44,711 nucleotides of DNA, taken from the NCBI RefSeq assembly GCF_000337175.1, contig NZ_AOIJ01000062.1:1-44711 (forward strand), given 5' to 3'. Every line of letters starts with the position of its first letter. Within the stretch, counting starts at the first letter, position 1. This stretch comes from Natrinema gari JCM 14663 (lineage in GTDB: Archaea; Halobacteriota; Halobacteria; Halobacteriales; Natrialbaceae). Positions 1,837 through 34,374 of the stretch are shown piece by piece. The position numbers and the translations under genes were made by a program. The notes beneath the pieces were generated by a model, which saw nothing but the letters and a program-made list of their open reading frames with translations, had not been told where the DNA came from and did not search any database.

Positions 1837-2145
1837 ATGAGATCCCCACTTCCGACGAACAGACTCGTTTCGCTGACGCTCGCCGGCGCGGTGGTAACTG
1901 CGTTCGTCGCGCTCGCGCTGGCAGCCCCCGGACTCGGGCTCGGCGTCGATTCGCTGACCGACGACGAGAACCCGACGGTCGCGAGCGATGCACCGACGCC
2001 GAACGAGGACTTCACACCGGCGGTCGGGACGCAAGGCGGCGGTGAACACGAGGACGACGAGTACGAAGAACACGAGGAGTACGAGGACGAATACGAGGAA
2101 TATGAAGAGGACGAATACGGGGAACACGAAGAGGAGGACGACTAG
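1837..2145 (+). CDS. Small membrane-anchored acidic (Glu/Asp/Tyr-rich) protein
   Basis: The protein has 102 residues. Residues about 10-35 form a hydrophobic signal or membrane segment (LVSLTLAGAVVTAFVALALA). An acidic linker follows, and from about residue 68 the tail is almost only E, D, Y and H in loose EYEE/EDEY/EHEE repeats. ATG 1837 was chosen because it sits at leaderless distance from a TATA-like box and directly precedes the hydrophobic segment; a longer open frame from 1771 is less likely. It is the first gene of a tight unit, with apbE starting 2 nt after its stop. The tail could bind cations or a cytochrome partner electrostatically. No flavinylation motif (D/N-x-x-S/T-G-A-S/T) is present. 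Function is not known. Confidence 0.7.
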   Translation: MRSPLPTNRLVSLTLAGAVVTAFVALALAAPGLGLGVDSLTDDENPTVASDAPTPNEDFTPAVGTQGGGEHEDDEYEEHEEYEDEYEEYEEDEYGEHEEEDD

Positions 2146-2147
2146 CG

Positions 2148-3017
2148 ATGAGCTTGGCGGACTCCCTTACTGCCGCCCGCACGCGACTCGGTGATGCCAG
2201 ACTGGAGTTTCGGTGCTGCGATACCGACTTCGTGGTTCGGACGACGGGCTACCATGCCAACGCCGCAGCCGAGCGCGCCCGCGATACCGCGCTGTCACTC
2301 GAGGCCGAACTCAACGCGTTCGATCCGGAAAGCGCAGTTGCGCATCTCAATCGGACCGGACGCATCGAGAACGAACACGTCGCTCGCTTGGTCCGGCGCG
2401 GTCTCGAGTACGGCGAGCGCACCGACGGCGTCTTCGACATCCGGCAGGGGGCGGTTGAACACGACCTGAAGGCATACCTCCGCGGCGACCGAGAATCCGT
2501 TTCGCCAGCGTTTGAAACCGGGTCGGTACGCATCGACGGCGACCTCGTTGTCACTGAGACGGAACTCGACTTAAACGGTCTTGCGAAGGGGTACATCGTC
2601 GACCGTGCGACCGCCGCAGCAGCGGGGTCGGGCCGACGTGGCTTCGTCAGCGGCGGTGGCGATATGTCGCCGCCGACCGGCCCGATCGCCGTCGAGAACC
2701 CCTACGGGGATTCGCGTCCGCTCAAAATTCTCGACACCGACTGGAACGTCGCCACCTCCGGGGGCTATCGCCGGGAGCGCGACGGTGTCGACCACGTCTA
2801 CGATCCGACGACGGAGCGACTCGGTGCGCGACATGAGTCGGTCACCGTCGTCGCACAGCGCGACTGCATGGAGGCCGACGCGCTCGCGACGACGCTCGCC
2901 GCACTGCCGCTCTCGGACGCGCTCGAGCGCGCAGCAGCGTGGCCGGACCTCGAGGCGTTCGTGATTCATGACGGCGTCTTTCGGACGACGGAGGGATTCG
3001 ATGCGCACGTCGCATAG
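2148..3017 (+). CDS. apbE: ApbE-family FAD:protein FMN transferase
   Basis: The family transfers FMN from FAD onto a Thr/Ser of an acceptor protein, as in NqrC, RnfG and other extracytosolic electron-transfer flavoproteins. The 289-residue protein shows ApbE signatures: DLNGLAKGYIVDRA (about residues 140-153), the GGGD turn, the HVYDPTT motif, and the late ADALATTL Mg-site motif with its aspartate. No signal peptide is evident at the N-terminus (MSLADSLTAARTRLGD), unlike many bacterial ApbE lipoproteins. Its stop overlaps the start of the next gene at 3001. The neighbouring TSP3-repeat and ferric-reductase-like proteins suggest a membrane redox chain, but no recognisable FMN-acceptor domain is encoded in this operon. 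Confidence 0.88.
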   Translation: MSLADSLTAARTRLGDARLEFRCCDTDFVVRTTGYHANAAAERARDTALSLEAELNAFDPESAVAHLNRTGRIENEHVARLVRRGLEYGERTDGVFDIRQGAVEHDLKAYLRGDRESVSPAFETGSVRIDGDLVVTETELDLNGLAKGYIVDRATAAAAGSGRRGFVSGGGDMSPPTGPIAVENPYGDSRPLKILDTDWNVATSGGYRRERDGVDHVYDPTTERLGARHESVTVVAQRDCMEADALATTLAALPLSDALERAAAWPDLEAFVIHDGVFRTTEGFDAHVA

Positions 3018-3288
3018 CGGGAAGATCACGGTCATCGCGGTCGTGCTACTTGTCGCCACGATTCCGGTGTTGTGGGGGATCGCTGACGTTCGCAAGACGC
3101 AGGCGGTCGACCGCGAGCAGGCGGACCTCGTCGACTCGACGGTGCCGACGAGACAGGCACCGAACGATTACGACGGCGACGGGATTCGTGACGACACGGA
3201 CCAGTGCCCGACGCGATCGGAGACGACGAACGGCTTTCAGGACGGCGACGGCTGTCCGGACGTCGTCGAGACAACGGGGGCCTCGTAA
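3001..3288 (+). CDS. Membrane-anchored protein with thrombospondin type 3-like calcium repeats
   Basis: The protein has 95 residues. One N-terminal transmembrane or signal-anchor helix spans residues about 8-26 (ITVIAVVLLVATIPVLW). The outward part carries TSP3/EF-loop-like segments DYDGDGIRDDTDQCP and FQDGDGCPD, whose Asp spacing and paired Cys are typical of calcium-binding TSP3 repeats. ATG 3001 lies inside the last codons of apbE, and its stop overlaps the next start (TAATG), so translation is probably coupled. It is likely an extracellular accessory or structural subunit of the redox operon. Exact role unknown. Confidence 0.75.
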   Translation: MRTSHSGKITVIAVVLLVATIPVLWGIADVRKTQAVDREQADLVDSTVPTRQAPNDYDGDGIRDDTDQCPTRSETTNGFQDGDGCPDVVETTGAS

Positions 3289-3836
3289 TGGAGGTCATTT
3301 GGTATCTCGACCGTGGTGCGGCGCTGGTCGCTTACCCCGCGCTGTATCTGGCGGTCTTGACGGGGATTCTCTACACCGCGCGGTCGTTCGGCCCGCTCTA
3401 CCGGCTCTCTCGCCGGGTCCACATCGAAGTGTCGGTGTTTGCGATGCTCATGACGCTCCTCCACGGCGTCCTCGGTGTCCTCGATACCTGGTTCATCGTC
3501 TCCGGGTCGGCCCCCCAGCCCGCATACTCGACAACGTACCTGCTCGCTGGTGTCGTGGTCGGCGTCGGGGCGCTGCAGGTGCTCGTCGTCGCGGTCCGTG
3601 GCTTTCTCGACGCACAGCGGTTCGACCGGCCCTGGGGACCGCGGGTCGTCCATGCATTCGCCTACGGTGGCTTCGTGTTCGCGACGATCCACGCAGTCGT
3701 CATCGGGACCGATGTCGCGGGGCTGATCCGTCCAGTCTTCGGCCCGGCGATCGCGTTCCTCGGCTACGTCCTGCTGTTGCGCCTGCTGGTGGCCAGCGGG
3801 CAGCTGTCGACGCCCGCGACGACGAAGCATAGCTAG
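3288..3836 (+). CDS. Ferric-reductase-like transmembrane cytochrome b protein
   Basis: The 182-residue integral membrane protein has about five helices. Two helices carry paired histidines: H-X13-H in VHIEVSVFAMLMTLLHG and H-X12-H in VHAFAYGGFVFATIHA. This is the bis-haem arrangement of the ferric reductase-like transmembrane (FRD/YedZ) superfamily, which moves electrons across the membrane. ATG 3288 overlaps the preceding TAA. No FAD/NAD(P)H domain is fused, so the electron donor must be another protein. With ApbE upstream, the family precedent is an extracytosolic flavin-linked electron-transfer module. The gene ends convergently, overlapping the stop of the regulator on the other strand by two bases. 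Confidence 0.8.
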   Translation: MEVIWYLDRGAALVAYPALYLAVLTGILYTARSFGPLYRLSRRVHIEVSVFAMLMTLLHGVLGVLDTWFIVSGSAPQPAYSTTYLLAGVVVGVGALQVLVVAVRGFLDAQRFDRPWGPRVVHAFAYGGFVFATIHAVVIGTDVAGLIRPVFGPAIAFLGYVLLLRLLVASGQLSTPATTKHS

Positions 3837-4372
3837 TAGCTGTCCCACAGGTCGAACAGCCGGTCGACAACTCGATCCGTAAATGTTCGCCGGTGGATCG
3901 TGTAGAGATACTGCACGCGCTCTGGATCGTGCAGTTCGTATTCGACGCTGCGCCCGTTCCGCTCCTTGGTCACGAGATCCGCGTCCTCGAGTTTCGAGAG
4001 GTGCCACGACACCGTCGACGGCGACCGATCGAGGCGATCGCTCAGGTCGGCGGTCGACAGCGCTCCTTCGACGGCGAGGTGGGCGATGATCCGGCGGGCG
4101 TACTCGCGTCGCAGCGCGTTCATCACGGCCTGATCAGCCTCGTCGAACTCCGTTGCCGGATAGTACCGAGTGTACTTCCCGTCGTCCGACTTCTCGAGCA
4201 ACCCTTGGGTTTCCAGCTGGCGGAGGGGGTACTGCAGTGTTCCCTGCGCATACTCGAGAGCCTCGAAGAGAGCCCGAAAGTGGATCCCGGGATTGTCGCG
4301 GACGTGCTGATAGATCGTCCGCCGCGACCGCAGTTCCAGCGCCGGGTCCGCGTCGGGGTCGGGGTCCGTCAT
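3833..4372 (-). CDS. Transcriptional regulator with two winged-helix domains
   Basis: The protein has 179 residues. Residues about 15-75 form a first winged helix (RRTIYQHVRDNPGIHFRALF, TLQYPLRQLETQGLLEK). Residues about 95-160 form a second ArsR/MarR-like one (ARRIIAHLAVEGALSTADLS, STVSWHLSKLEDADLV). Tandem winged-helix proteins of this layout are common haloarchaeal regulators of adjacent genes. ATG 4372 follows the upstream membrane protein's stop by 2 nt, so the two are co-transcribed. It could control the convergent redox operon or its own membrane partner. No ligand-binding cysteines are evident. Target inferred only. Confidence 0.85.
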   Translation of the reverse strand: MTDPDPDADPALELRSRRTIYQHVRDNPGIHFRALFEALEYAQGTLQYPLRQLETQGLLEKSDDGKYTRYYPATEFDEADQAVMNALRREYARRIIAHLAVEGALSTADLSDRLDRSPSTVSWHLSKLEDADLVTKERNGRSVEYELHDPERVQYLYTIHRRTFTDRVVDRLFDLWDSY

Positions 4373-4374
4373 GG

Positions 4375-4704
4375 TCAGTCCCAAGTCAACGCGAGGAAGA
4401 ACGCGAGCAGTCCCACGAGGATGAGTGCCGCCGCGCTGTGCTCGAGCAACTCGACGGTCCGCACGGAGAAATACGAGAAGAGGTAGTACTCGAGGAAGAC
4501 GACGAACCCGTAGATCGCGAACATGAGATAGCCGACGGCGACAACAGCCATGCGACGGTCGCGTTCCCGTCGCCATGCCAGCGCGCTGAGCAGTGCGAGC
4601 ACCGCGCCAAGGAGAAAAATCCCGAGGCTGATACTCTGCTCGAGTTGCTGGGCGAGCGTCAGTGCAATGACCATCGTGACGAATTCCGGGACGAGCACTG
4701 CCAT
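4375..4704 (-). CDS. Haloarchaeal four-helix membrane protein paired with a regulator
   Basis: The 109-residue protein has four predicted transmembrane helices: FVTMVIALTLAQQLEQSISL, IFLLGAVLALLSALAW, AVVAVGYLMFAIYGFVVFLE, and ALILVGLLAFFLALTW. Charged RRERDRR lies between helices 2 and 3. Small proteins of this type are repeatedly found just upstream of winged-helix regulators in haloarchaea (DUF7521-like; family assignment from memory). Start ATG 4704. Two nucleotides separate it from the regulator at 4372, suggesting a membrane sensor/regulator pair. Specific function unknown. Confidence 0.75.
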   Translation of the reverse strand: MAVLVPEFVTMVIALTLAQQLEQSISLGIFLLGAVLALLSALAWRRERDRRMAVVAVGYLMFAIYGFVVFLEYYLFSYFSVRTVELLEHSAAALILVGLLAFFLALTWD

Positions 4705-4877
4705 TCGGTACGACTCGGCAGTGGTATTGGGAAAGAAAAAGGATTGTCGTCCAAGCGTCGAATCGGCAGCCGGTCTGGTCCCGACGTCGGGTTGGCAGGC
4801 GCTAAATGGTCATCGAGACGATTTCCCGACTCAACGGAGTTACGGCGCTGCAAGATGCAAAGCTCGGACTGGCAGCC

Positions 4878-4890
4878 CCGCCCGGGACTA
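4878..4890 (+). repeat. tRNA-Gln 3'-end remnant (att-like copy B)
   Basis: CCGCCCGGGACTA repeats the last 13 bases of the tRNA-Gln gene. The following bases (CTTCTGCTGCGAAC) loosely match the sequence after the real tRNA (TTCTGCGACGAAC). The second integrase remnant begins about 54 nt further on, the same arrangement as at the intact tRNA. Confidence 0.6.
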
Positions 4891-4940
4891 CTTCTGCTGC
4901 GAACAAATTCGTGAGCAGCAGGTCTCCTCGGCGGTTCGAA

Positions 4941-5455
4941 CCTAGAGGACTTCTGTTTCTACATGAAGCGATTTTCGGCATCTCGAGCAAGACCTTGTTC
5001 CGCGGGTGATCGGTCGACCCACGGAGCGCGTGGATCTCGACGCGGTCATCGACGAAGTCCAGGCCGAACTCGCGGTCCGGGGTTCGCGCCGATCTCGATG
5101 TCTTCCGCCCAGTCACGGCCGTGGTATGGGAAGAACTTCCGGAACGCCTTCCGGTAGTTCCGGAGGGGGGTCCTTCGCTATTTCGCGCTCGTGCTTGTAT
5201 TCGAACAGCAGCGCCTCGATGTCTTTGCGCTCCATGTCGACCAGCGGCGTATCTGCACGCTCGGCACTGAGTCGGAGATCGGAGCAGTTGTTGACGGTCG
5301 TACTGGCGGCGAGATTCCGCTGGGTGTCCCGGTAGGGAATGAGTTCCTTGCTCACCTTTCGATCGCAGTCGTCGATGTCTGCCTCCTCGAGTTTCTGCAG
5401 TTGGTACTCGAACTGGTTGTTGAAATTGTGAATATCACTTACGCTTGTCGTTCAT
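4941..5455 (-). pseudogene. Tyrosine integrase remnant (copy 2), N-terminal half with frameshifts
   Basis: On the minus strand an ATG at 5455 is followed, after an early frameshift, by FNNQFEYQLQKLEEADIDD, SKELIPYRDTQRNLAAST, RLSAERADTPLVDMERKDIE and LLFEYKHEREIA. After a shift in a C run near 5165 it continues RNYRKAFRKFFPYHGRDWAEDIEIGA. After a third shift it gives PDREFGLDFVDDRVEIHALR, GSTDHPRNKVLLEM. This is the core-binding domain of a haloarchaeal phage/plasmid integrase. The catalytic domain is missing: the gene stops being recognisable at exactly the same residue as copy 1, followed by the same residues (PKI[A/T]SCRNRSPLG). Dead mobile-element gene. Confidence 0.75.
4944..5123. repeat. 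Direct repeat of 1359-1537 (integrase/flank duplication)
   Basis: An imperfect direct repeat of about 180 bp. For example, both copies contain AGAGGACTTCTGTTTCTACA, then TGAAG(T/C)GATTTTCGGCATCT, CGAGCAAG, and a near-identical stretch through GACCCACGGAGCGCG. Both copies sit just over 50 nt downstream of a tRNA-Gln 3' end. Confidence 0.8.
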
Positions 5456-6114
5456 GTCGAAAATACACACTTCGGCAACGCGTTGTGTCTGATCTCCGCC
5501 CCTCGTGAAAGAATCAACAGCAGTGGTTGATAAAAGGGTTAGGAGAATCACCTCTATTGAAATCTATACTACGACCGGTTCTCCTCGAAACAGGTGTTAA
5601 CTACAGATGCGAACTTAACGCTGATACTCTCCCATCTACCGGTGATGTTGACGGAGTCGTGCTGAAGACAGAGCGCGAATGTGGCACGGGCTGATGAGTG
5701 ATCACCGTGGAAGATCGAACGCCCAGTACAGGGCAAGCAGCTAGCGATCTATCCGAAATATGCCGACAGTTGGCTGCAGAAATAGAGGGCGTATTTGTTC
5801 TCATCGAACTACTGAAGCAGCTGCACCGAACCTGTTGAGAAAGCCAGATTCGACGAAGGAATAAAACGAGTGAGGCAGTTCCTCGGACGTAAGCGATGAG
5901 CAGTCGGGGAGGCCATGAACTGAAACAGCGAGCGAGTGAAGGGAGTGGGACATCGGATTCGGTCCGGAAGACGAGAAGAGTCAGTTTGATCCGCGTGCTT
6001 ACTACTCATTTCGGTAACACAAACGCACGCTACCAACAGAGTCATACATGTCTGTTCGGGAGTGTAGGGTGTCAGAGCCTTATTCCCGAGTCTCAACATC
6101 GCCTGAATCCATCT
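5456..6114. other. AT-richer intergenic region after the integrase scar
   Basis: Composition falls visibly below the neighbouring genes (e.g. GATAAAAGGGTTAGGAGAAT and TTGAAATCTATACTACGACC), consistent with decayed foreign DNA. Apart from the small ORF at 5698 no gene is supported. The open frame running from 5896 into the permease lacks protein-like composition and is read as untranslated leader. Confidence 0.5.
5698..5838 (+). CDS. Hypothetical small ORF or gene fragment
   Basis: A GTG at 5698 opens a 46-residue frame. It contains DLSEICRQLAAEIEGVFVLI then ELLKQL, which reads as an amphipathic helix rather than random translation. No family is recognised. It lies in low-GC sequence between the second integrase scar and the permease, so it may be the remnant of a mobile-element gene. 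Low confidence. Confidence 0.25.
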   Translation: MITVEDRTPSTGQAASDLSEICRQLAAEIEGVFVLIELLKQLHRTC

Positions 6115-7323
6115 ATGTCCTCAGTAATTGGCATCGTCAGTGTTGCGCTCGTTGCATCGCTTTTTATGTCATTCACTGTCGGGGCGAACAGTAACTCCGC
6201 CCCGATCGCGCCCGCCGTTGGGGCGAACGCGCTCTCCACCTTACGAGGGGCGTTACTGGTCGGGATCGTTGCCGCCCTCGGGGCTATCGCACAAGGTGGC
6301 AGCATCTCTGAGACCATCGGCCATGGACTGGTGACCGGCGTGACGATTACCCCGCTGGCCGCTACTGCGACGCTGCTCACGGCAGCGACACTCATCACCA
6401 TCGGGAATTCCCGTGGCTACCCAATCCCCTCAGCATTCACCGTCACCGGTGCCGCGATCGGTGCCGGTGTCGCTCTCGGCGGCGGCTTTGCGGTCGTGAC
6501 GTACGCCAAGATTCTGGGGTTCTGGTTCGCTATCCCCGTCGTTGAGGGCGTCCTCGCGTACGGTCTCGCGTGGCTGTTGCTGGACGAGACGGTCTCGGAC
6601 ACGCTGAGTATTCCACTCCTCGCCGGCGGTGTCGGCTATGCACTCGCCAACATCCAGCTATCGTTTCTCCCGGCCCCACAGAGCAACCAAGGGTCGATCG
6701 CGGGCGTCGTCACGCGTCAATTCAACGTCGCATCAATAGGGGGTGGCGGGGCTGGAATCGTCCTCATCGGGGGTGTAATCGGACTTCTCACCGCTGGCAT
6801 AGTCTACTGGCAACTCCGGCGTGACGTGACGACCGGGATCAACCGGATGCTGGTCGCACTCGCCCTCGTCGTCGTATTCACCAGCGGGGGTTCGCAAGTC
6901 GGACTCGCCACCGGGCCACTGGAATCCGTCTTCGAATCGTCGCTCGGTCTGCCCTCACTATACTTGCTCGCGCTCGGCGGACTCGGCATTCTCTTCGGTG
7001 GCTGGTTCCGGTCGCCGCGTCTCATTCAGGCAGTGGCCCGTGAGTACGCCTCGCTCGGGCCCAAACGATCGATCGCCGCGTTCATCCCCGCGTTTCTCAT
7101 CGCGCAGGCCGCGATCGTTCTCGGCTATCCCATCTCGTTCAACAAGGTGATGATCTCGAGCATCATCGGAGCCGGGCTGGTCGGCGGGTCGTCAAGTTCG
7201 GACGGGGTGTCCGCCACGAAGACGGGATACACGGTCGGGGCGTGGATCGTCTCAATGGTCGGCGGTGGCGCGATCAGTTTCGCACTCTACCACGTGCTTG
7301 CTGCCCTCCCGGGACTGGAATGA
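6115..7323 (+). CDS. PiT-family inorganic phosphate permease
   Basis: The 402-residue membrane protein has about ten helices and the internal duplication of PiT transporters, which move phosphate (or sulfate) with a cation. The N-terminal signature FTVGANSNSAPIAPAVGANA corresponds to the GAND-x-A-NA motif. The second-repeat counterpart is the segment around GYPISFNKVMISSIIGAGL. ATG 6115 was chosen because the permease signature follows directly. It lies between tRNA-Gln 3'-end remnants B and C, so it may be element cargo. It converges on the hypothetical gene at 7324. No phoU-like gene is adjacent. Confidence 0.88.
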   Translation: MSSVIGIVSVALVASLFMSFTVGANSNSAPIAPAVGANALSTLRGALLVGIVAALGAIAQGGSISETIGHGLVTGVTITPLAATATLLTAATLITIGNSRGYPIPSAFTVTGAAIGAGVALGGGFAVVTYAKILGFWFAIPVVEGVLAYGLAWLLLDETVSDTLSIPLLAGGVGYALANIQLSFLPAPQSNQGSIAGVVTRQFNVASIGGGGAGIVLIGGVIGLLTAGIVYWQLRRDVTTGINRMLVALALVVVFTSGGSQVGLATGPLESVFESSLGLPSLYLLALGGLGILFGGWFRSPRLIQAVAREYASLGPKRSIAAFIPAFLIAQAAIVLGYPISFNKVMISSIIGAGLVGGSSSSDGVSATKTGYTVGAWIVSMVGGGAISFALYHVLAALPGLE

Positions 7324-7942: not shown

Positions 7943-8356
7943 GCAGTCACTAGAAGTGCTATTTTGTTCTCGGCGAGACGGACCCCATTCGATCGTCGCG
8001 CCCCCGGCCACAGTCCACTGGCGGCCCGAGCGTCCGTGCACTCGGCTACTCCGCCTCGAGTCCCCTGTCCACCACCAACGAGTGGTCGACATCGGTATCG
8101 GTCCCGAACCGATCGAGGGACGGTGAGGAATCGGGGCTCGGTCGACGGCTGGCTGATCGCGCGAGACGGGTCGGCCGTGCTTCGCCGGCGACTACGCTGA
8201 CGTGGCGGGAGCCGCAACCGGGTGACGACACCGACCGCCGTCCCGAGAGCGGGCGTCTCGAGGGCCGCGCGGCCACTGCGCGAAACGGGACGAAACCACC
8301 ACTGTGCCCGTTCTAACAACTCCATAATAATCAGTTCGCTATCAGATTTTGTCGCT
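7943..8356. other. Intergenic region upstream of the phosphohexomutase-like gene
   Basis: About 410 bp in which neither strand gives a protein-like frame. A TATA-like element lies at the downstream end (8323). This marks the boundary between the tRNA-linked region and the polysaccharide locus. Confidence 0.4.
8323..8332 (+). promoter_or_regulatory. TATA-like box for the 8357 gene
   Basis: CATAATAATC is centred about 30 nt before ATG 8357, as expected for a leaderless transcript. Confidence 0.45.
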
Positions 8357-9694
8357 ATGGTTGGCCCACGCGGTATCGGAGGACCGGGCGGTGAAGAGAT
8401 CACGGCCGCACGCGCGCTCTCCGTCGGTCGCGCCGTCGCGTCCGACGGCTCCGATCGCGTCGTCGTCGGCCGCAACGCTCGAGCGACCGGAGCGGTACTG
8501 GCCGATGCGGTGACTGCCGGTCTTCGAGAGTGTGGTGCGGACGTTCTCGCGGTCGGCGTCGCACCGACGCCGACGATCGCGCGAACCGTCTCGCGAACGG
8601 ACGCGGAGGCGGGGATCGTCGTCACGGCGGCTCACGACCCGACACCGGACGATGAGCTCATGCTCCGGACGGCATCCGGAAAGGCGGTCGGCCCCGAGCA
8701 GCGGGCTGCGATCGCCGCTCGAGTCGAACGCGGCAAGTACGATCTCCACCCCCAGGACGGCAGGGGGTCGACGGAGACGGTGGCGGACGCGAGCGAACGG
8801 CACGCGACGGAACTGGTCGAGGCCGTCTCGGTGACTGACCCACCGAGCGTCGTTGTCGATGTCGGGGACGGGGCCGGCGAGATCACGGCGCGCGTGCTCT
8901 CGGCGCTCGGTTGTGACGTCGGGACGCTGCACGGACGGCGGAAGGAGGCCGTTCCCGGGTGGCCGGGCGAGCCGGCCGGAGAGACGCTCGGAGCGCTGTC
9001 GTCGCTCGTGGAAGCGACGGACGCGCGGCTCGGGATCGCCCACGACGGCGACGCCGATCGGATGCTGGCCGTCGACGAGACGGGGGCCGTCGTCCCGCGG
9101 AACGCGCTGCTGGCGCTGTTCGCGCGGGTGACTGCGACCAACGGTGACATCGTCGTTGCGCCGGTCGGGACGAGCATGGCCGTCGACGACGCGCTCGCGA
9201 CCGTCGGCGCGACGGTGCGTCGAACGCGGGTCGGCGACACGTTCGTCGCCGACTGCACGACGTGGCCGGACGTCGCCTTCGGCGGCGACCCGAGCGGGGC
9301 GTGGATCTGGCCGGACGAGACGCCGTCTCCCGACGGGCCACTTGCCGCGTGCAAACTCGTCGAACTCGTCGCCGATCGCGGGCCGCTCTCGTCGCTCGCC
9401 GCGGCCATCGAAACGTACCCCAGCCGCCGCGCGTCGGTCGCGGTCGAGGAGCAAACCGCCGTGATGAACCAGGTTCGAGAGTGTGCCCACGAGTGGTACG
9501 ACGATGTCGACACGCTCGGTGGTGTCTACGTCGATACCGGTCCCGGCTGGCTGTTCCTGCGTGCGAGCGATACCGAGTCGGCGATCCATCTCACGGTCGA
9601 GGCACGAGACGAGTTTCGAGCCGAGCGACTGGAAGCCGACGCGATCGGACTCCTCGAAACGGCGATCGCGACGGTGTCGGGACTTCGACCGTGA
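8357..9694 (+). CDS. Phosphohexomutase-like protein (GlmM/PMM family) with degenerate catalytic motifs
   Basis: The 445-residue protein has the four-domain alpha-D-phosphohexomutase layout. The family isomerises hexose-1-P and hexose-6-P, e.g. glucosamine-P for UDP-GlcNAc synthesis. The metal loop DGDADR (230-235) is intact. The catalytic phosphoserine loop, normally TASHNP, reads TAAHDP (90-95), with alanine at the position of the phosphorylated serine. The N-terminal FGTxGIRG motif is VGPRGIGG. The sugar loop is GGDPSG (309-314). The phosphate loop, normally RPSGTEP, is RASDTES (402-408). It may be inactive, regulatory, or altered in chemistry. ATG 8357 has a TATA box at leaderless distance. 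It opens the polysaccharide locus. Confidence 0.85.
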   Translation: MVGPRGIGGPGGEEITAARALSVGRAVASDGSDRVVVGRNARATGAVLADAVTAGLRECGADVLAVGVAPTPTIARTVSRTDAEAGIVVTAAHDPTPDDELMLRTASGKAVGPEQRAAIAARVERGKYDLHPQDGRGSTETVADASERHATELVEAVSVTDPPSVVVDVGDGAGEITARVLSALGCDVGTLHGRRKEAVPGWPGEPAGETLGALSSLVEATDARLGIAHDGDADRMLAVDETGAVVPRNALLALFARVTATNGDIVVAPVGTSMAVDDALATVGATVRRTRVGDTFVADCTTWPDVAFGGDPSGAWIWPDETPSPDGPLAACKLVELVADRGPLSSLAAAIETYPSRRASVAVEEQTAVMNQVRECAHEWYDDVDTLGGVYVDTGPGWLFLRASDTESAIHLTVEARDEFRAERLEADAIGLLETAIATVSGLRP

Positions 9695-11762: not shown

Positions 11763-12425
11763 ATGGGATTTATCGCAGCAGTCCACCTCGCTCACGACGA
11801 ACTGCCGTTGGTTCCGACGATCGCGCGCTGTGCGGACGCGACGCTTAGATACGAGTACGGGGCGACGACCGGGAAGCACTGTTTCCGGGTCGTGTCGGCC
11901 TTCGGCGACGAGCGTGCGGCCCTCGAGAGCGCGATGGCCGCCGATCCGACCGTCTCGAACCCGACTCGCGTCGCGACGTTCGAGAACCGAGCGGTCTACC
12001 GCGTCGCCGTCGACAGCGACCTCGAGATCGTTCCCGACCGGTGCATCGAGGACGGGCTGTTCGTCTTTACGGTCACGAGCGACGACGGGGGATGGCTCGC
12101 ACGGGTCCACCTTCCCGATCGGGGCGCGCTGGCCGCATTCCGGACGCACTGTCGCGACCGCGGCATCTCGTTTCGCGTGACTCAATTGTACGACTCGTCG
12201 GCGACCGACGACCGGACCTACTCCCTGACCGAACGACAGCACGAAATTCTCACGATGGCGTACTACGCCGGCTACTTCGAGGTGCCGCGGCGAGCTACCC
12301 AGGACGATCTTGCGGCCCGGCTCGGGATCTCGGATTCGGCGGTTTCCCAGCGAATTCGGCGCGCCGTCTCCGAACTGATCGCGACGACCTTGGAGAACGA
12401 TCGCACGCCCGACGGGTACGGATGA
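11763..12425 (+). CDS. HTH_10 (Bat-type) transcriptional regulator
   Basis: The 220-residue protein has an N-terminal Bat-like sensor domain (residues about 1-150). A C-terminal HTH_10 domain follows: LTERQHEILTMAYYAGYFEV, PRRATQDDLAARLGISDSAV, SQRIRRAVSELI. This is the bacterio-opsin-activator type of helix-turn-helix, almost confined to haloarchaea. ATG 11763 has a TATA-like GTATAAGTATA about 48 nt upstream; an in-frame upstream start at 11691 is unlikely because it precedes that box. No PAS/GAF cofactor residues can be identified. It is probably a local regulator of the glycan locus, by position only. Confidence 0.88.
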   Translation: MGFIAAVHLAHDELPLVPTIARCADATLRYEYGATTGKHCFRVVSAFGDERAALESAMAADPTVSNPTRVATFENRAVYRVAVDSDLEIVPDRCIEDGLFVFTVTSDDGGWLARVHLPDRGALAAFRTHCRDRGISFRVTQLYDSSATDDRTYSLTERQHEILTMAYYAGYFEVPRRATQDDLAARLGISDSAVSQRIRRAVSELIATTLENDRTPDGYG

Positions 12426-12722: not shown

Positions 12723-14372
12723 ATGTCGGAACGACGTAGTCTGCAGCGCCCGGATGGGGACAGTGCTGGCCGGTCTCGGCCGGATAGGGAGGGGGATCGG
12801 CGGCCATCTCTCGACGACTCGATATCGCAGAGGCGGTCACGACGGTCGTTTCTGGGAGGGGCCGTGACAGCGTGTCTCGCCGGGATCGGGCTGACCACGA
12901 CCGCCAGCGCAGCCACGGACCCGTACGGGTACTACTACGACGACTACGAAACCGTCGTCGACGTCACCGAGGCGGGCGCGGACGACACCGGTACCGAATC
13001 GATCACGCCCGTACTCGAAGACCTCCGCCGTGACGAGACGCTGCTCGTGTTCCCTGAAGGGGAGTATTACATGGACGAACAGTTCCGGTTCACGGGCTTC
13101 GATAACTTCGGCGTCGTCGGCGAGAACGCGACGCTGATCCCGGCGAACTACCACGAGTTCGACGGCCCACAGTATCGACTGTTCCGGCTCGGCGTCGCGT
13201 ACAGTCCCGGGGGGCATCTCCGCTTCGAGGGGTTCGACATCGATCAGACGGCCCCCGAGACGGGGATCAGGGCGATCGAGGCCTACGCCGCCGACCGGCT
13301 CGAGGTGCGCGACGTGACGATCACCGGCTATCACGACAGCGGGACGTGGGGGCCGGGACTGTTCAACGTCACCGACCCAGACGGGCGAGGCATCGTCGAA
13401 CGGTTCCGCGCGCCCGACGGCGGCGCGTGGGTAAACAACACGCCGAACGCGGGCAACCGCTGGCGCGGCCCGATCGGCATCGAAGCGAACGAGAACCGAG
13501 GGCGACTCGAGTTCAGACACTGCGCGCTCGGTGGCTTTCCGAACAACGGTCTCTATGCCGCGGGCGGCGACGGGACGATCATCGTCCACGGGGGGATCTA
13601 CCGGAACAGCAACGGTGCAAACGTTCGCGTCGGCGGCCGAGACAGCGAGATTCGCTGGCCGACGGTCGAAGTCGACACGACGCGACTGGAGGACGTATCC
13701 CAGCGCGGCATTCGGATCGAGAACGGCCGTAACATCGAAATCTACGGTGCCGCCGTCGAGATCACCGCTCCCAAACCGACCAGCCACGCAATTTCGGTGA
13801 TGAACACCTGCGACAGCGCACGAATCGATACGACTCGCATCCAGTTGCAGGGGCCGGAGGTAAACCACGGGATCGTCATCTCGCCGGAGTGTGGCGAGGC
13901 GACGATCATCGACACGGAGATCACCCACGCAACCGGGGGCGGCTACCCGCTCTGGATTCGGGACAGCGACAGTGCCGGACAGGTGCTCGCGGAGCACCTC
14001 ACGATTTCGGGACGTGCGGGCGATGGCGGCGGGTTCCGGGACGGCATTCGCTGTGAACGGGACGACTGCCGGTTCAGTCATGTCGATGTCACACAGCACG
14101 GACGCGACGGCGTGGATCGAAACGCCATCGTCAACACGGGCGCTGATCTGACCGTCTACCGGAGCGAACTGCGGGCCAATCAGTATCCATACATCGATCT
14201 CGGGTCCGGCGCGCTCGTTCGCGACTCGACGCTCGAGTCGTCGGCCGACCATGAGGCCGTCTGCCTCTACTCGTCGTCGACGAATCCGACCTTCAAGAAA
14301 AACCGGCTGGTCGGCGGTATTCGCGACCTCGGCGCGAGCGGCGTGACGACCTGGGAGAACACGTACGAGTAG
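12723..14372 (+). CDS. Tat-exported right-handed parallel beta-helix protein
   Basis: The 549-residue protein has a long basic n-region with twin arginine R40-R41-S-F-L, a hydrophobic h-region, and an ASA-A cleavage site near residue 63, so it is exported folded by Tat. The mature part opens like pectate-lyase/phage-tailspike proteins (VDVTEAGADDTGTESITPVL, LVFPEGEYYM). It continues with many short Asn/Gly-rich coils (e.g. GIRIENGRNIEIYGAAVEI, HGIVISPECGEATIIDTEI) typical of parallel beta-helix repeats. Such folds are polysaccharide lyases, epimerases or binding proteins. No catalytic triad can be assigned by eye. Probably acts on, or anchors, the surface polysaccharide made by this locus. 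Confidence 0.88.
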   Translation: MSERRSLQRPDGDSAGRSRPDREGDRRPSLDDSISQRRSRRSFLGGAVTACLAGIGLTTTASAATDPYGYYYDDYETVVDVTEAGADDTGTESITPVLEDLRRDETLLVFPEGEYYMDEQFRFTGFDNFGVVGENATLIPANYHEFDGPQYRLFRLGVAYSPGGHLRFEGFDIDQTAPETGIRAIEAYAADRLEVRDVTITGYHDSGTWGPGLFNVTDPDGRGIVERFRAPDGGAWVNNTPNAGNRWRGPIGIEANENRGRLEFRHCALGGFPNNGLYAAGGDGTIIVHGGIYRNSNGANVRVGGRDSEIRWPTVEVDTTRLEDVSQRGIRIENGRNIEIYGAAVEITAPKPTSHAISVMNTCDSARIDTTRIQLQGPEVNHGIVISPECGEATIIDTEITHATGGGYPLWIRDSDSAGQVLAEHLTISGRAGDGGGFRDGIRCERDDCRFSHVDVTQHGRDGVDRNAIVNTGADLTVYRSELRANQYPYIDLGSGALVRDSTLESSADHEAVCLYSSSTNPTFKKNRLVGGIRDLGASGVTTWENTYE

Positions 14373-14465: not shown

Positions 14466-14546
14466 GTGAGTCCGTCGGATCGCGACCGGTCGGCGGCGAA
14501 CGGGGCTGTCGATCGTCGACTCGAACGTGTGGGGGCGAACCCGTGA
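14466..14546 (+). CDS. Putative 26-residue leader ORF overlapping the flippase start
   Basis: GTG 14466 to TGA 14544-14546; the stop overlaps the flippase start codon as GTGA. The encoded peptide is Arg/Asp/Ala-rich with no known similarity. The TATA box at 14428 is at leaderless spacing from this ORF rather than from the flippase, so translational coupling is plausible. Chance occurrence cannot be excluded. Confidence 0.3.
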   Translation: MSPSDRDRSAANGAVDRRLERVGANP

Positions 14547-16165
14547 ACAGAAGTATTGCGAGCGGCGTCGTCTCCGTCGTCAGTGCGAAAATCGTCGTCC
14601 TCGTCGTCACCGCGCTTTCAACGCCGCTGCTCTACCGGTTCCTCGGGGCGTCGGCGTTCGGCGAGTACGCGTTTCTGCTGTCCGTCTTCGCGATCTACAT
14701 GATCTTCGTCAGCTCCGGGGTCACCGACGGCGTCCGAAAGTTCCTCGCGGAGGACCGCGCCGCGGCGAACTGGAGCGAACACGTCGTCGGCTTCTACTTC
14801 CGGCTGGCGGTCTCCCTCTCGGCTATCGGGGCCCTCCTGCTGGTCCTCGCGACCCGGGCCGGAATCGTCGCCCTCGCGTTCGGAGCCGAGCTCACGACGT
14901 ACTTCTACGTCCTCGCGGCGCTCGTGATTTCGGCGCAGTTTCGCGATTACGCGCGGAAGACGCTCATGGGATTCGGCCTCGAGCGGTACTCGGAACCGCT
15001 CAAGGTCCTCGACAAACTCGGCTTCGTCGCGGTCGCGATCCCGCTGACCTACGTCGGCGTCGGCGTGATGGGGGCGCTTGCGGGCCACGTGTTCGCGAGC
15101 GGTCTCGTCGCCGCGGTCGGACTCGTCCTCGTCCATCGACGCGTCTCGCTGTCGTGCGTGTTCACCAGGACGTCGGCGCGGTTTCCCCGGAAGGAGATGT
15201 TCGCGTTCAACTCGATGAGTATCGCGTTGATCTTCCTGCTGATGTCGCTCTACCACATCGATGTCGTGATGCTCCACCGGTTCCGGACGGACGCGGCGGT
15301 CGGTAACTATCGGGCGGCGCTGACGCTCGCCGAGTTCCTCTGGTTCGTCCCGATGGCGATTCAGACGGTCTTCGTCCACTCGACGTCGGAGCTGTGGTCG
15401 CAGAACCGCTACGGGAAGATCTCCGCGCTCGCCTCGCGGACGACGCGCTATACGTTTCTGCTGACGGGCGTGATGGCGGTCGGGCTCGCGGCGCTGGCGG
15501 ATGTCGCCGTCCCGATCTACTTCGGTGCCGAGGCCGAGCCGGCGATCACGCCCCTGTTGCTGTTGCTCCCCGGCGCGCTCGGCTTCGCCCTCGCGCGACC
15601 GATTCTCGCGATTTCGCAGGGGGAAGGGACGCTCCGGTACCCGGTCGCGGCCACCGGCGGCGCGGCGCTGCTCAATCTGGGACTCAACCTCGCCCTCATT
15701 CCGCGCTACGGGATGCAAGGTGCAGCCGTCGCGACCAGCGTCGGATACGGGTCGATGTTCGTCTGCCACTGCTGGAGCGCTCGACGCGTCGGGTTCGATC
15801 CGCTCGCGGACGCCCGGATCGGTCGCGCAGTTCTGACGACCGTTCTCGCGGCCGTTCCCATCATCGCCCTCTCGATGGCGATCGCGAACCCGTGGCTCGC
15901 GCTCGCTGTCGTCCCGCCCATCGGATTCGCAATCTTCGTCACGTTCGCGCTCCTGGTCGGTGCGCTGGACCCGGCCGAACCGTTCGAGATCCTGTCGGTG
16001 TTTCCGGACCCGATCGGATCGACGGCGGACGCGATTCACGATCGGATCGCGGGCGGCGGGAGCGACGACGCGACGCGTAACTGGTTGCAACTCCTCCTGT
16101 TCGTCGTCGGCCTGTCCCTGCTCGTCTCGGGGCTCGCACTGGGCATACTCGATCCCGGCGTGTGA
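14543..16165 (+). CDS. Wzx-type polysaccharide/oligosaccharide flippase
   Basis: The 540-residue integral membrane protein has about 14 helices of the MOP/polysaccharide-synthesis superfamily. Its opening is typical (VVSVVSAKIVVLVVTALSTP, LLYRFLGASAFGEYAFLLSV), as is the later repeat (LAISQGEGTLRYPVAATGGA, ALIPRYGMQGAAVATSVGYG). Such proteins flip lipid-linked oligosaccharides outward across the cytoplasmic membrane. The start is GTG 14543. It is the exporter for the polysaccharide built by the neighbouring glycosyltransferases, whether for capsule/EPS or S-layer N-glycan. It converges with the GT2 gene on the other strand. Confidence 0.92.
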   Translation: MNRSIASGVVSVVSAKIVVLVVTALSTPLLYRFLGASAFGEYAFLLSVFAIYMIFVSSGVTDGVRKFLAEDRAAANWSEHVVGFYFRLAVSLSAIGALLLVLATRAGIVALAFGAELTTYFYVLAALVISAQFRDYARKTLMGFGLERYSEPLKVLDKLGFVAVAIPLTYVGVGVMGALAGHVFASGLVAAVGLVLVHRRVSLSCVFTRTSARFPRKEMFAFNSMSIALIFLLMSLYHIDVVMLHRFRTDAAVGNYRAALTLAEFLWFVPMAIQTVFVHSTSELWSQNRYGKISALASRTTRYTFLLTGVMAVGLAALADVAVPIYFGAEAEPAITPLLLLLPGALGFALARPILAISQGEGTLRYPVAATGGAALLNLGLNLALIPRYGMQGAAVATSVGYGSMFVCHCWSARRVGFDPLADARIGRAVLTTVLAAVPIIALSMAIANPWLALAVVPPIGFAIFVTFALLVGALDPAEPFEILSVFPDPIGSTADAIHDRIAGGGSDDATRNWLQLLLFVVGLSLLVSGLALGILDPGV

Positions 16166-29627: not shown

Positions 29628-31034
29628 TCACAACCTCCGGTAGGCGAGTCCCGCGTCGGCGGCGACATCTTCGTCGACCGCGCCGGTCACATCGATCAGG
29701 GCGGGCTCGTCGGCGAGGTCGTCCGCGACCGTCCCGAGATCGAGATGGTCGAACTCCTCGTGGGGCGTCGCGAGCACGACGGCGTCGAAGCCCTCGAACG
29801 AGAGTCGATCCTGGATCTCGATGCCGAACGACTCTCGGGCCGCCTCGTCGTCCGCGAACGGGTCGAACCCCGCAACGTCGATGTCGTACTCCTGCAGTTC
29901 GTCGATGACGGTGCCGATCTTCGAACTTCGAATGTCGCCGACGTCCGGTTTGTACGCCAGCCCCAGCACCAGGACGCGACTCTCGCGGAGCGTCTTGTGA
30001 CACTGGTTGAGCGCCTTGATCGTCAACTCGGCGACGTGGTCGGGGACCGACTCGTTGACCTGCCGGCCCGTTTGCATGAGTTCCGGGTCGAACCCCTCCT
30101 GGGCCGACCGGTACGCGAAGAAGTACGGATCGACCGGAATGCAGTGGCCGCCGACCAGCCCCGGACGGTACTCGTGGAAGTTCCACTTCGTGCCCGCGGC
30201 CTCGAGGACGGCTCGGCCGTCGATGTCCATGGTGTCGAGCGCCATCGTGAGTTCGTTGACGAACGCGATGTTGAGGTCCCGCTGGGCGTTCTCGACGACC
30301 TTGCAGGCCTCGGCGACCTCGATCGACGGCGCGCGATGGACGCCCGCGTCGACGATCGACTCGTACAACGTCGCCACGTCTTCGAGCACCGTCTCTGTCT
30401 GCGCGCTGACGACTTTGACGACGTCTTCGAGGCCGTGGTCGGCGTCGCCCGGCGTGGCGCGTTCCGGGGAGTACCCGACGAAGAAGTCCGTGCCCGCGGT
30501 CAGTCCGGACGCGTCCTCGAGCGCCGGGACGAGTGTTTCGCGCGTCGTGCCCGGGTAGACCGTCGACTCGAGGACGACCGTCGTACCCGGGCCCATCTTC
30601 GATCCGACGGTGGTTGCCGCGCTCTCGACGTAGCCGAGGTCCGGCCGATCGTCGTCGTCGATCGGCGTGGGAACGGCGATGATGACGTAGTCCGCCGCGC
30701 CGATATCGGTCGCGTCGGTCGTATACGAGATGTCGCCGTCCTGGATCGCGTCGTCGGAGAGGTCACCGGTCGTGTCGATCCCCTCCTGCAGTCGACTCAC
30801 CGTCACGTCGTCGACGTCGTAGCCGATGACGCGGTAGTTCGACCGGGCGAACCCGACTGCGAGCGGGAGCCCGACGTATCCCAATCCGACGACGCAGATC
30901 GTCGCTGCATTCGTCGACTGTGTTCTCGAGTGCTCGAGGGCAGTGCCGCCGCCGTCGGGGCTCGATTGTCGTGTGTCCTGGTCGCTCTCCCGATCGTCGG
31001 TTCGCGTCTCCGTGTCGCTGAGTATCGTGGTCAT
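29628..31034 (-). CDS. Nucleotide-sugar dehydrogenase (UDP-glucose/UDP-ManNAc 6-dehydrogenase)
   Basis: The 468-residue protein converts a UDP-hexose(amine) to its uronic acid with two NAD+. It has the Rossmann motif ICVVGLGYVGLPLAVGFARS (46-65), PTPIDDDDRPDL, ESTVYPGTT, and EVAEACKVVENAQRDLNIAF (central helix). The catalytic cysteine is in GLVGGHCIPVDPYF (Cys298), and LVLGLAYKPDVGDIRSSK marks the C-terminal domain. The GGHCIPVDP context resembles WecC/WbpA (UDP-ManNAcA, UDP-GlcNAcA) more than Ugd. The first about 44 residues are an extra disordered acidic extension; a later start is possible. Expected to supply uronic acids for the glycan. Confidence 0.93.
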   Translation of the reverse strand: MTTILSDTETRTDDRESDQDTRQSSPDGGGTALEHSRTQSTNAATICVVGLGYVGLPLAVGFARSNYRVIGYDVDDVTVSRLQEGIDTTGDLSDDAIQDGDISYTTDATDIGAADYVIIAVPTPIDDDDRPDLGYVESAATTVGSKMGPGTTVVLESTVYPGTTRETLVPALEDASGLTAGTDFFVGYSPERATPGDADHGLEDVVKVVSAQTETVLEDVATLYESIVDAGVHRAPSIEVAEACKVVENAQRDLNIAFVNELTMALDTMDIDGRAVLEAAGTKWNFHEYRPGLVGGHCIPVDPYFFAYRSAQEGFDPELMQTGRQVNESVPDHVAELTIKALNQCHKTLRESRVLVLGLAYKPDVGDIRSSKIGTVIDELQEYDIDVAGFDPFADDEAARESFGIEIQDRLSFEGFDAVVLATPHEEFDHLDLGTVADDLADEPALIDVTGAVDEDVAADAGLAYRRL

Positions 31035-32371: not shown

Positions 32372-32563
32372 GTGAAGCCTCGGCCGTCGACAGGACCGTC
32401 GGCCGAGGTCGAGCTACCAATGACACGAACCAGTACTGCAGTTCAGGCAGCGGTCTCGAACCGGCTCGAAACGACCGAGACGACCATCGGCAGCGACCTC
32501 GGCTGCCCCACGGTCGGTGGGCCATCGCGGTCGACGGCCGCTGCTCGGGAGGTGCTGCGCTGA
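32372..32563 (+). CDS. Putative leader ORF coupled to glmS
   Basis: Up to 63 residues from GTG 32372, or 47 from ATG 32420. The TGA (32561-32563) overlaps the glmS start as TGATG. The first start sits at leaderless distance from the TATA box, so ribosomes loading at the 5' end would translate it before glmS. The peptide is Thr/Ser/Arg-rich with no recognised family. It could be a translational leader controlling amino-sugar synthesis, or chance open frame in GC-rich sequence. Confidence 0.35.
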   Translation: MKPRPSTGPSAEVELPMTRTSTAVQAAVSNRLETTETTIGSDLGCPTVGGPSRSTAAAREVLR

Positions 32564-34374
32564 TGTGCGGTATTATCGCGCGCATCGGCCGCGGCAGCGC
32601 GGCGGAGACGCTTCTCTCGGGCCTCGAGAACCTCGAGTACCGCGGCTACGACTCGGCGGGGATCGCGGTCCAGAACGGGTCCGGCGTCACGGTTCACAAG
32701 ACGTCCGGCGAAGTGTCCGACCTCAAGTCGTCGCTCGACGGCCGTCCCCACGGGAACATGGGGATCGGTCACACCCGCTGGAGCACCCATGGCCCACCGA
32801 CCGACGAGAACGCCCATCCGCATACGGACACGGCGGGTGACGTGGCGGTCGTCCACAACGGCGTCATCGACAACTACGACGAACTCAGGGCGGATCTCGC
32901 CGCGACGGGCCACGAGTTCGAGAGCGAGACCGATACGGAGGTCATCCCGCACCTTATCGACGAGTACCTGCAGTCGACCGACGACACCGAGCGGGCGGTC
33001 CGCAAGGCCGTCGACACGCTCGAGGGGAGTTACGCGATCGCTGCGATCGTCGACGGCGAGGAGCGCGTCTACGCGGCGCGAAAGGGCTCCCCGCTCGTCC
33101 TCGGTCTCGACGACGAGGAGTGGTATCTCGCCAGCGACGTGCCGGCGTTCCTCGATCACACTGACGACGTGATCTATCTCGAGGACGGCGACCTCGTCGT
33201 TCTCGAGCCGGACGCCTACCGAATCACCGATCTCGACGGCACACGGATCGAGCGAGCCGTCGACACCGTCGACTGGGACCCGGACGATGCAGGGAAAGGC
33301 GAGTACGACCACTACATGCGCAAGGAGATCGAGACGCAGCCGACGGCCCTCTCGAACACGATCGAGGGGCGGATCGATGGTGGGGACGTCGCCTTCGAGG
33401 ACCTCCCGCCCGGCTCGTTCGACGGGATCGAGTCCGTCCAGTTCGTCGCCTGCGGGACGTCGTATCACGCGGCGATGTACGGCGGGCAGTTAGTGCGGGA
33501 GGCGGGCGTACGGGCCGATGTCCTCCGCGCGAGCGAGTACGAATCGACGGCCGGACCGGTCGACGAGACCACGCTCGTCGTCGCGGTCACGCAGAGCGGC
33601 GAAACCGCCGATACCCTCGACGCGGTCCGGAACGGAGCCGCCCGTGGCGCGCGGACACTCGCCGTCACTAACGTGGTCGGCTCGACCGCCGCACGCGAAG
33701 CCGACGACGCCGTTTACATCCGCGCCGGCCCGGAAGTCGGCGTCGCGGCGACGAAGACCTACTCCTCGCAGGCGGTCACGCTCGCCCTGCTCAGCCAGCG
33801 CATCGCCGGCGACGTTCCGGACGCGACACCCGTCGCGGACCGAGCGGCCATGCTCGAGGCGCTCGAAGCCCTTCCAGCGCACGTCGAGACCGTCCTCGAA
33901 AGGGAACGGGCGGAACCCCTCGCACGGGACCTGTTCGACAGTGACTCGTACTTCTTCATCGGGCACGGACTCGGGCACTCGGTGGCGCTCGAGGGCGCGT
34001 TGAAGTTCAAGGAGATCACCTACGAGCACGCCGAAGGATTCGCCGCCGGAGAACTGAAACACGGACCGCTCGCGCTCGTGACCGAGGACACGCCCGTGTT
34101 CGCGGTCGTGACCGGCGGCGACGACGACGAGAAGACGAAGACGAACGCGATCGAGGCCCAGTCTCGCGGTGCGCCGATCGTCGCTGTCGGTCCGGACGAG
34201 CAGCCCCTCGTCGACATCGCCGATGCGCACCTGCCGGTCCCCAACACCCATCCCGTCTGGGTGGGGTTGCTCGCGAACGTCCAGCTCCAGTTGCTCTCCT
34301 ACCACGCCGCGACGCAACTCGAGCGCCCGATCGATAAACCGCGCAACCTCGCGAAGAGCGTCACGGTCGAATGA
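32563..34374 (+). CDS. glmS: Glutamine--fructose-6-phosphate aminotransferase (isomerizing)
   Basis: The 603-residue enzyme makes glucosamine-6-phosphate from fructose-6-P and glutamine, the first step to UDP-GlcNAc. It starts MCGIIARIG with the N-terminal nucleophile Cys of the glutaminase domain, then LENLEYRGYDSAGIA and GHTRWSTHGPPTDENAHPH. Two SIS sugar-isomerase domains follow: FVACGTSYHAAMYGG, VAVTQSGETADTLDAV, ATKTYSSQAVTL, and FFIGHGLGHSVALEGALKFK then EITYEHAEGFAAGELKHGPL. It ends KPRNLAKSVTVE, the usual C-terminal catalytic tail. Length is normal. ATG 32563 is fixed by the MCG motif. It supplies amino sugar to the adjacent locus. Confidence 0.97.
   Translation: MCGIIARIGRGSAAETLLSGLENLEYRGYDSAGIAVQNGSGVTVHKTSGEVSDLKSSLDGRPHGNMGIGHTRWSTHGPPTDENAHPHTDTAGDVAVVHNGVIDNYDELRADLAATGHEFESETDTEVIPHLIDEYLQSTDDTERAVRKAVDTLEGSYAIAAIVDGEERVYAARKGSPLVLGLDDEEWYLASDVPAFLDHTDDVIYLEDGDLVVLEPDAYRITDLDGTRIERAVDTVDWDPDDAGKGEYDHYMRKEIETQPTALSNTIEGRIDGGDVAFEDLPPGSFDGIESVQFVACGTSYHAAMYGGQLVREAGVRADVLRASEYESTAGPVDETTLVVAVTQSGETADTLDAVRNGAARGARTLAVTNVVGSTAAREADDAVYIRAGPEVGVAATKTYSSQAVTLALLSQRIAGDVPDATPVADRAAMLEALEALPAHVETVLERERAEPLARDLFDSDSYFFIGHGLGHSVALEGALKFKEITYEHAEGFAAGELKHGPLALVTEDTPVFAVVTGGDDDEKTKTNAIEAQSRGAPIVAVGPDEQPLVDIADAHLPVPNTHPVWVGLLANVQLQLLSYHAATQLERPIDKPRNLAKSVTVE

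Follow-up and report, generated by a model that had tools for sequence, protein, structure and literature searches.

The alpha-D-phosphohexomutase superfamily is already known from vertebrates to contain dead paralogues, and a pseudoenzyme with this fold would not in itself be of a new kind. PGM5 (aciculin) is such a paralogue, inactive as a mutase but with the fold kept; herring PGM5 is described as inactive with its substrate binding intact, and among the active-site loops of fish PGM5 the one that binds phosphate is given as the least conserved (PMC7761743). The defects named for PGM5 in that account are substitutions other than loss of the phosphoserine. Removal of the phosphoserine itself is known from laboratory-made proteins, as in Aspergillus AGM1 S69A, which is reported to have no detectable activity and was crystallised with Glc-1,6-bisphosphate bound (PMC6096347), and in the S108A variant of P. 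aeruginosa PMM/PGM. Bacterial GlmM demonstrates that this fold can also regulate another protein by binding, as it is reported to bind and inhibit the diadenylate cyclase CdaA/DacA (PMC8573169, PMC6368335), the S. aureus GlmM being itself described as an active mutase (PMC6368335). A limited search of the open-licence literature found no example of a prokaryotic phosphohexomutase pseudoenzyme, and the open-licence literature on haloarchaeal GlmM and on Natrinema glycosylation held nothing on the gene described below.

The window (the whole analysed stretch of 44,711 nucleotides from Natrinema gari JCM 14663) encodes a degenerate GlmM-type phosphohexomutase of 445 amino acids, here termed paralogue 2 (8357..9694, + strand), which was assigned from its ORF, Pfam and NCBIfam matches, motif alignment and predicted fold. 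The frame comprises 445 codons with no internal stop and has a coding score of 99.5, versus at most 15.1 for the remaining five frames. Pfam PGM_PMM domains I to III exceed their cut-offs and domain IV is marginal (21.7 vs 23.1 bits), and the predicted structure (pLDDT 90.4, pTM 0.90) resembles solved archaeal phosphohexomutases with TM scores of 0.93 to 9du5 and 0.92 to 1wqa. By its predicted fold, which has the four-domain architecture, the protein is a member of the alpha-D-phosphohexomutase superfamily. Low pLDDT at residues 1-10, 91-100 and 191-210 (63, 67 and 54/61) does not count as evidence of erosion, since the canonical N. hispanicum copy dips equally in these segments (69, 67 and 58/60). 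The nearest family is archaeal GlmM, with which the protein shares domains and fold; unlike members of the NCBIfam equivalog Arch_GlmM (TIGR03990), it scores only 347.6 bits against a curated cut-off of 439 and is missing catalytic residues, and on both counts its sequence places it outside the active family. The copies of N. altunense (367.7 bits) and of a further Natrinema genome, G052 (412.6 bits), likewise fall below 439, with N. hispanicum paralogue 2 (485.3 bits) and the window genome's own GlmM1 (480.2 bits) above it. The original prediction took the long open frame as a sign of selection, an argument which is weak in this GC-rich genome, since the opposite strand has an open frame of the same length that is no gene. 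An antisense gene as the source of constraint was ruled out, as the overlapping antisense ORF contains three stops in the sister genome.

Likeness to the active mutases was judged on three motifs, of which the metal loop DGDxDR is present in the window protein as an intact DGDADR (9044..9061, + strand, like all features below unless stated). Neither of the other two is found: T-[AG]-S-H-N-P, with its phosphorylatable serine, is replaced by TAAHDP, and the phosphate loop R-x-S-G-T-[EQ]-P by RASDTES. In the alignment, the catalytic loop (8624..8641) carries S92A and N94D and is followed by K102M, loop 0 (8357..8383) reads MVGPRGIGG versus the canonical MFGTSGIRG and has lost R8, and the phosphate-binding loop (9560..9580) carries G405D and P408S with R411H directly after it. 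The sugar-binding loop GGDPSGAW (9281..9304) has E311D as its sole change, and a domain II loop at residues 190-206 (8924..8974), a segment picked post hoc, is altered at 6 of 12 conserved positions. H93, R402, S404 and T406 are retained. In P. aeruginosa PMM/PGM the counterparts of R8 and K102 are presumably the catalytic residues Arg20 and Lys118, on which a literature search gave nothing. The loop changes named in the original prediction (TAAHDP, VGPRGIGG and RASDTES) and the kept DGDADR are all visible in the ORF and the alignment, with the correction that RASDTES, although an altered loop, is not to be derived from RPSGTEP: close relatives commonly read RASGTEP, and the true changes are G405D and P408S, at positions which are conserved in 100% and 98% of 105 canonical rows. 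K102M, N99D, E311D, R411H and several changes in the 190-206 loop had gone unmentioned. Unlike the eukaryotic PGM5, the protein is of archaeal GlmM type, is encoded in a glycan locus and has alanine at the very position of the serine; and this change, although identical to that of the engineered mutants, is natural, occurs in two species and is accompanied by further losses.

The extent of the degeneration was measured on 143 positions with a conservation of at least 95% across the 105 canonical rows of a 109-row alignment, in which some genes occur in duplicate and N. altunense occurs twice. Alterations at these positions number 31 in the window protein, 25 in N. altunense and 19 in G052, the last figure including 6 N-terminal positions merely missing from the fetched match (13 without these); the G052 gene itself starts with MFVTNEISR. 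In each of the 12 canonical Natrinema copies of paralogue 2, 0-3 positions are altered, and in no canonical row more than 12. Among the loops that would bind substrate, as judged on sequence, the metal loop has changed at 0/8 conserved positions in the window protein, the sugar loop at 1/12 and the phosphate loop at 4/8, and loop 0 has changed at 4/9 and the catalytic loop at 6/12. The loops of the chemistry (loop 0, catalytic and phosphate) are thus altered at 14/29 positions versus 1/20 in the metal and sugar loops (p = 0.0013); the same comparison gives 12/29 vs 2/20 in N. altunense (p = 0.024) and a non-significant 6/29 vs 1/20 in G052 (p = 0.22). The five textbook loops pooled are not significantly enriched in changes over the rest of the window protein (15/49 vs 16/94, p = 0.086), and the enrichment reaches p = 0.001 when two extra loop segments, GRDxR and 190-206, are added, both of which were picked after the changes had been seen.

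Paralogue 2 was found in 17 of 29 Natrinema genomes and was not detected at E <= 1e-60 in the other 12, an absence which holds within the at most 13 candidates scored per genome. Fifteen of the 17 copies are full length and two are broken, one by a frameshift near codon 132 (G075:C56, L127) and one by truncation after codon 228 (G058:C17, L126), where a GlmS-like frame comes immediately after it. Twelve of the full-length copies are canonical and three are degenerate, namely those of the window genome, of N. altunense, which is 89% identical to the window protein and likewise has TAAHDP, and of G052, which is 77% identical, reads TASHDP and SDTEP, lacks FGTSGIRG and retains the serine. The question raised with the original prediction, whether the genome also holds a canonical GlmM, is answered by GlmM1, which is encoded elsewhere and is one of four further phosphohexomutases of the window genome, each with TASHNP; GlmM1 has canonical motifs in all 17 genomes that carry paralogue 2, the window genome included. 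Within the 109-row alignment, deviation from [VIL]TASHNP is restricted to rows of the three degenerate lineages (4/109, N. altunense being counted twice), and of 391 haloarchaeal genomes sampled, two, those of the window and of N. altunense, have TAAH[DN]P inside a phosphohexomutase. A sporadic haloarchaeal occurrence of this motif was considered and rejected, as the pattern [V/I/M]TAAH[DN]P, which covers replacement of the serine by alanine and not by other residues, matches in 5/391 genomes, the other three matches lying in frames which, on inspection by eye, were not taken for phosphohexomutases; a reversed control pattern matches in 6/391 genomes, so that lone matches mean little. Sequencing error was ruled out by the same TAAHDP in the independently assembled N. 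altunense genome.

Alignment of the clade, which had been proposed as the means of checking the original prediction, showed TAAHDP to be common to two species and the other loop losses to three. N94D, N99D, F245V, E311D, G405D and the loss of R8 are common to all three degenerate lineages, S92A is restricted to the window genome and N. altunense, and the three degenerate copies cluster in the gene tree with a support of 98. From this sharing pattern and the gene-tree grouping it follows that loop 0, N94, N99, E311 and G405 were lost first and the serine later. The G052 copy, in which the serine is kept and other loop residues are lost, would represent a living intermediate, and canonical sister copies occupy this locus elsewhere in the genus, so that the stepwise transition from enzyme to non-enzyme could be traced in cultivable haloarchaea. 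Trees of the neighbouring genes place G052 differently, with G052 and another genome, G072, clustering in the beta-helix gene tree (support 96) and G052 grouping with the window genome and N. altunense in the phosphodiesterase tree (support 99), from which G072 is absent; some recombination within the locus is therefore likely.

Selection on the gene was examined with codon models of the GY94 type with branch classes, run with an own script and not a standard package, on taxa drawn from the 15 full-length Natrinema copies: 12 in the main fit, 10 in the fits by domain and branch age, and 8 in the controls and in a fit with empirical frequencies, the broken copies of G058 and G075 being excluded throughout. 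With 12 taxa, the degenerate clade has an omega of 0.274 and the background one of 0.126, and one ratio for all branches is rejected with 2dlnL 30.6, a test of relaxation which is post hoc because the clade was defined after the motifs had been seen; omega = 1 is rejected for the clade with 2dlnL 102. Less exposed to this choice is a test of neutrality for the two tip branches younger than the loss of the serine, which have an omega of 0.286; omega = 1 is rejected there with 2dlnL 34.5 (12 taxa), 34.1 (10 taxa) and 37.6 (8 taxa, empirical codon frequencies). In an 8-taxon control, in which the window and N. altunense branches were compared with the rest, the mutase gene gave an omega of 0.274 vs 0.144 (2dlnL 13.4), and no significant difference was obtained for its neighbours, namely the phosphodiesterase (0.101 vs 0.071, slightly up, 2dlnL 3.3), the regulator (0.104 vs 0.173, down, 2dlnL 3.4), the beta-helix gene (0.104 vs 0.100, 2dlnL 0.04) and the flippase gene (0.089 vs 0.102, 2dlnL 0.4). 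The mutase genes of the window and N. altunense differ by no indel in 445 codons, and their changes are distributed over the codon positions as 23:28:51 (p = 0.0004 against equal thirds). The tip-branch omega, the neighbour controls and the codon positions together indicate that the protein has been preserved after the loss of the serine at about half the usual strictness. Part of what is expected of a pseudoenzyme, a missing catalytic residue combined with purifying selection after its loss, is found in this gene.

The relaxation is unevenly distributed over the protein. In the 10-taxon fits it is significant in domain I (omega of clade and background 0.444/0.132, 2dlnL 26.2) and domain II (0.301/0.090, 2dlnL 14.3), and not significant in domain III (0.123/0.116, 2dlnL 0.02) or domain IV (0.222/0.169, 2dlnL 0.7); neutrality is rejected for each of the four domains in the degenerate clade. 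The contrast stems from the older branches, where omega is 0.435 for domains I and II vs 0.116 for domains III and IV, and is gone on the two youngest branches (0.304 and 0.269), with domain III at 0.233 having lost its special protection on these most recent branches. This pattern agrees with a history in which the phosphoryl-transfer half was released early and the whole protein then stayed under moderate constraint; it is also compatible with slow decay.

The mutase gene stands at the head of a block of five glycan genes, in which it is followed by conserved neighbours that encode a type I phosphodiesterase/nucleotide pyrophosphatase (PF01663; 9969..11654), a HTH_10/BAT-type regulator (11763..12425), a right-handed beta-helix protein (12864..14372) and a polysaccharide flippase-type protein (Polysacc_synt; 14543..16165). 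The block is present at 16 of the 17 Natrinema loci with paralogue 2, G058 being the one without it, and is also found in Natronorubrum sulfidifaciens (L039) and Halobiforma haloterrestris (L042). Upstream of the mutase gene, alignment revealed a conserved promoter-like element, TCTAACAACTCCATAATAAT (8312..8331), with 25 bases between its end and the ATG. The element TCTAACAACTCCATARTAAT, which in the window stands at this spacing from the ATG, aligns at all 10 paralogue-2 loci examined out of the 17 known, and these 10 include all three degenerate ones. No second copy with at most 3 mismatches was found in its own genome. A related sequence is located at the same distance ahead of the canonical GlmM1 (L003:370-389), and an element common to paralogue 2 and GlmM1 is possibly a shared regulatory site, as judged from sequence likeness. 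A sigma-70 promoter scan of the locus was discarded as inapplicable to archaea.

It is proposed, with a probability of about 0.6, that paralogue 2 of the window is a lineage-specific pseudoenzyme, a once-canonical second GlmM-type phosphohexomutase whose phosphoryl-transfer residues disappeared in three lineages of Natrinema and which was kept for a non-catalytic role. With no serine to phosphorylate, the window protein would be unable to run the mutase reaction; it should still fold and probably binds Mg2+ together with a hexose (or hexosamine) phosphate. Through its bound state it may then serve the intact GlmM1 as a partner subunit or modulator, or else regulate the adjacent glycan pathway in response to sugar phosphate. 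The original prediction, of a catalytically dead and probably selected protein heading a glycan locus, is supported by the serine loss in two species, the other loop losses in three, the purifying selection, the promoter element, the synteny and the canonical GlmM1 in another part of the genome, inactivity being predicted from the residues; its suggestion of a sensor or regulator is possible. A more specific proposal, which is tentative and on balance unlikely, is that in a surface-glycan block a serine-less GlmM-type protein has the dedicated task of binding sugar phosphate, as a subunit or sensor, and would pair or compete with GlmM1, domains I and II having been freed and the recognition half having at first remained fully constrained. 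Against any retained role stand the constraint at about half normal strength and the two sibling genomes with a broken copy and 12/29 without one, which make the gene dispensable somewhere.

The same observations can be read as the slow decay of a redundant copy, in which GlmM1 covers the reaction and the remaining constraint reflects past use or avoidance of misfolding and no present function. This reading is the main rival, if on balance an unlikely one: the roughly doubled omega of the degenerate clade, the broken copies (2/17), the canonical GlmM1 in 17/17 genomes and the undetected paralogue 2 in 12/29 (E <= 1e-60) are all as decay would have them, whereas neutrality is rejected on branches younger than the serine loss, the window and N. 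altunense genes differ without an indel and with changes weighted towards the third codon position (23:28:51), the promoter element is retained and the chemistry loops have changed while the metal and sugar loops are preserved. It is improbable, in turn, that the protein is still an enzyme, whether a mutase of low activity or the catalyst of another, serine-free phosphosugar reaction, for example via D94 or S404. Persisting constraint and the retention of the metal loop, H93, R402, S404 and T406 would suit such an enzyme, as would the residual activity said to remain in P. aeruginosa PMM/PGM S108A (as cited in PMC6096347); R8, K102, G405 and R411, however, are lost along with the serine, and AGM1 S69A as well as human AGM1 S64A or S64T are reported as inactive. 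Very improbable indeed is a dedicated non-catalytic inhibitor subunit for a diadenylate cyclase, comparable to bacterial GlmM on CdaA/DacA. The genome does encode one DAC-domain protein, but the cyclase gene lies on a different contig, no link between it and the mutase gene was found, and the canonical GlmM1 could serve equally well. The pseudoenzyme reading, if it holds, would provide a prokaryotic case in which the phosphoserine itself has been removed, and if GlmM1 were regulated by the window protein, this would constitute a control point in the archaeal supply of amino sugars for surface glycans.

Several further features of these loci were observed. In G072, although it has a canonical GlmM paralogue 2, the phosphodiesterase (L118:6707-8391) is split over two reading frames. 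Between the aminotransferase fragment with which the window opens and the mutase gene there are an ApbE-like gene and a PHO4 phosphate-transporter gene (window 1837-7323); the regions fetched from 16 Natrinema relatives showed no counterpart of them. The same contig also carries a UDP-glucose/GDP-mannose dehydrogenase (window 29628-31034, - strand) and a GlmS-type protein with SIS and glutamine amidotransferase domains (window 32563-34374, + strand), which is consistent with an amino-sugar glycan region. GlmM1 loci (e.g. L049, L056 and L064) have their own homologues of the phosphodiesterase and the HTH_10-type regulator within about 5 kb on either side, which are more distant, at about 50% and 40% identity respectively to those of the paralogue-2 cluster, and the two clusters may be duplicates that arose by the copying of a three-gene set.
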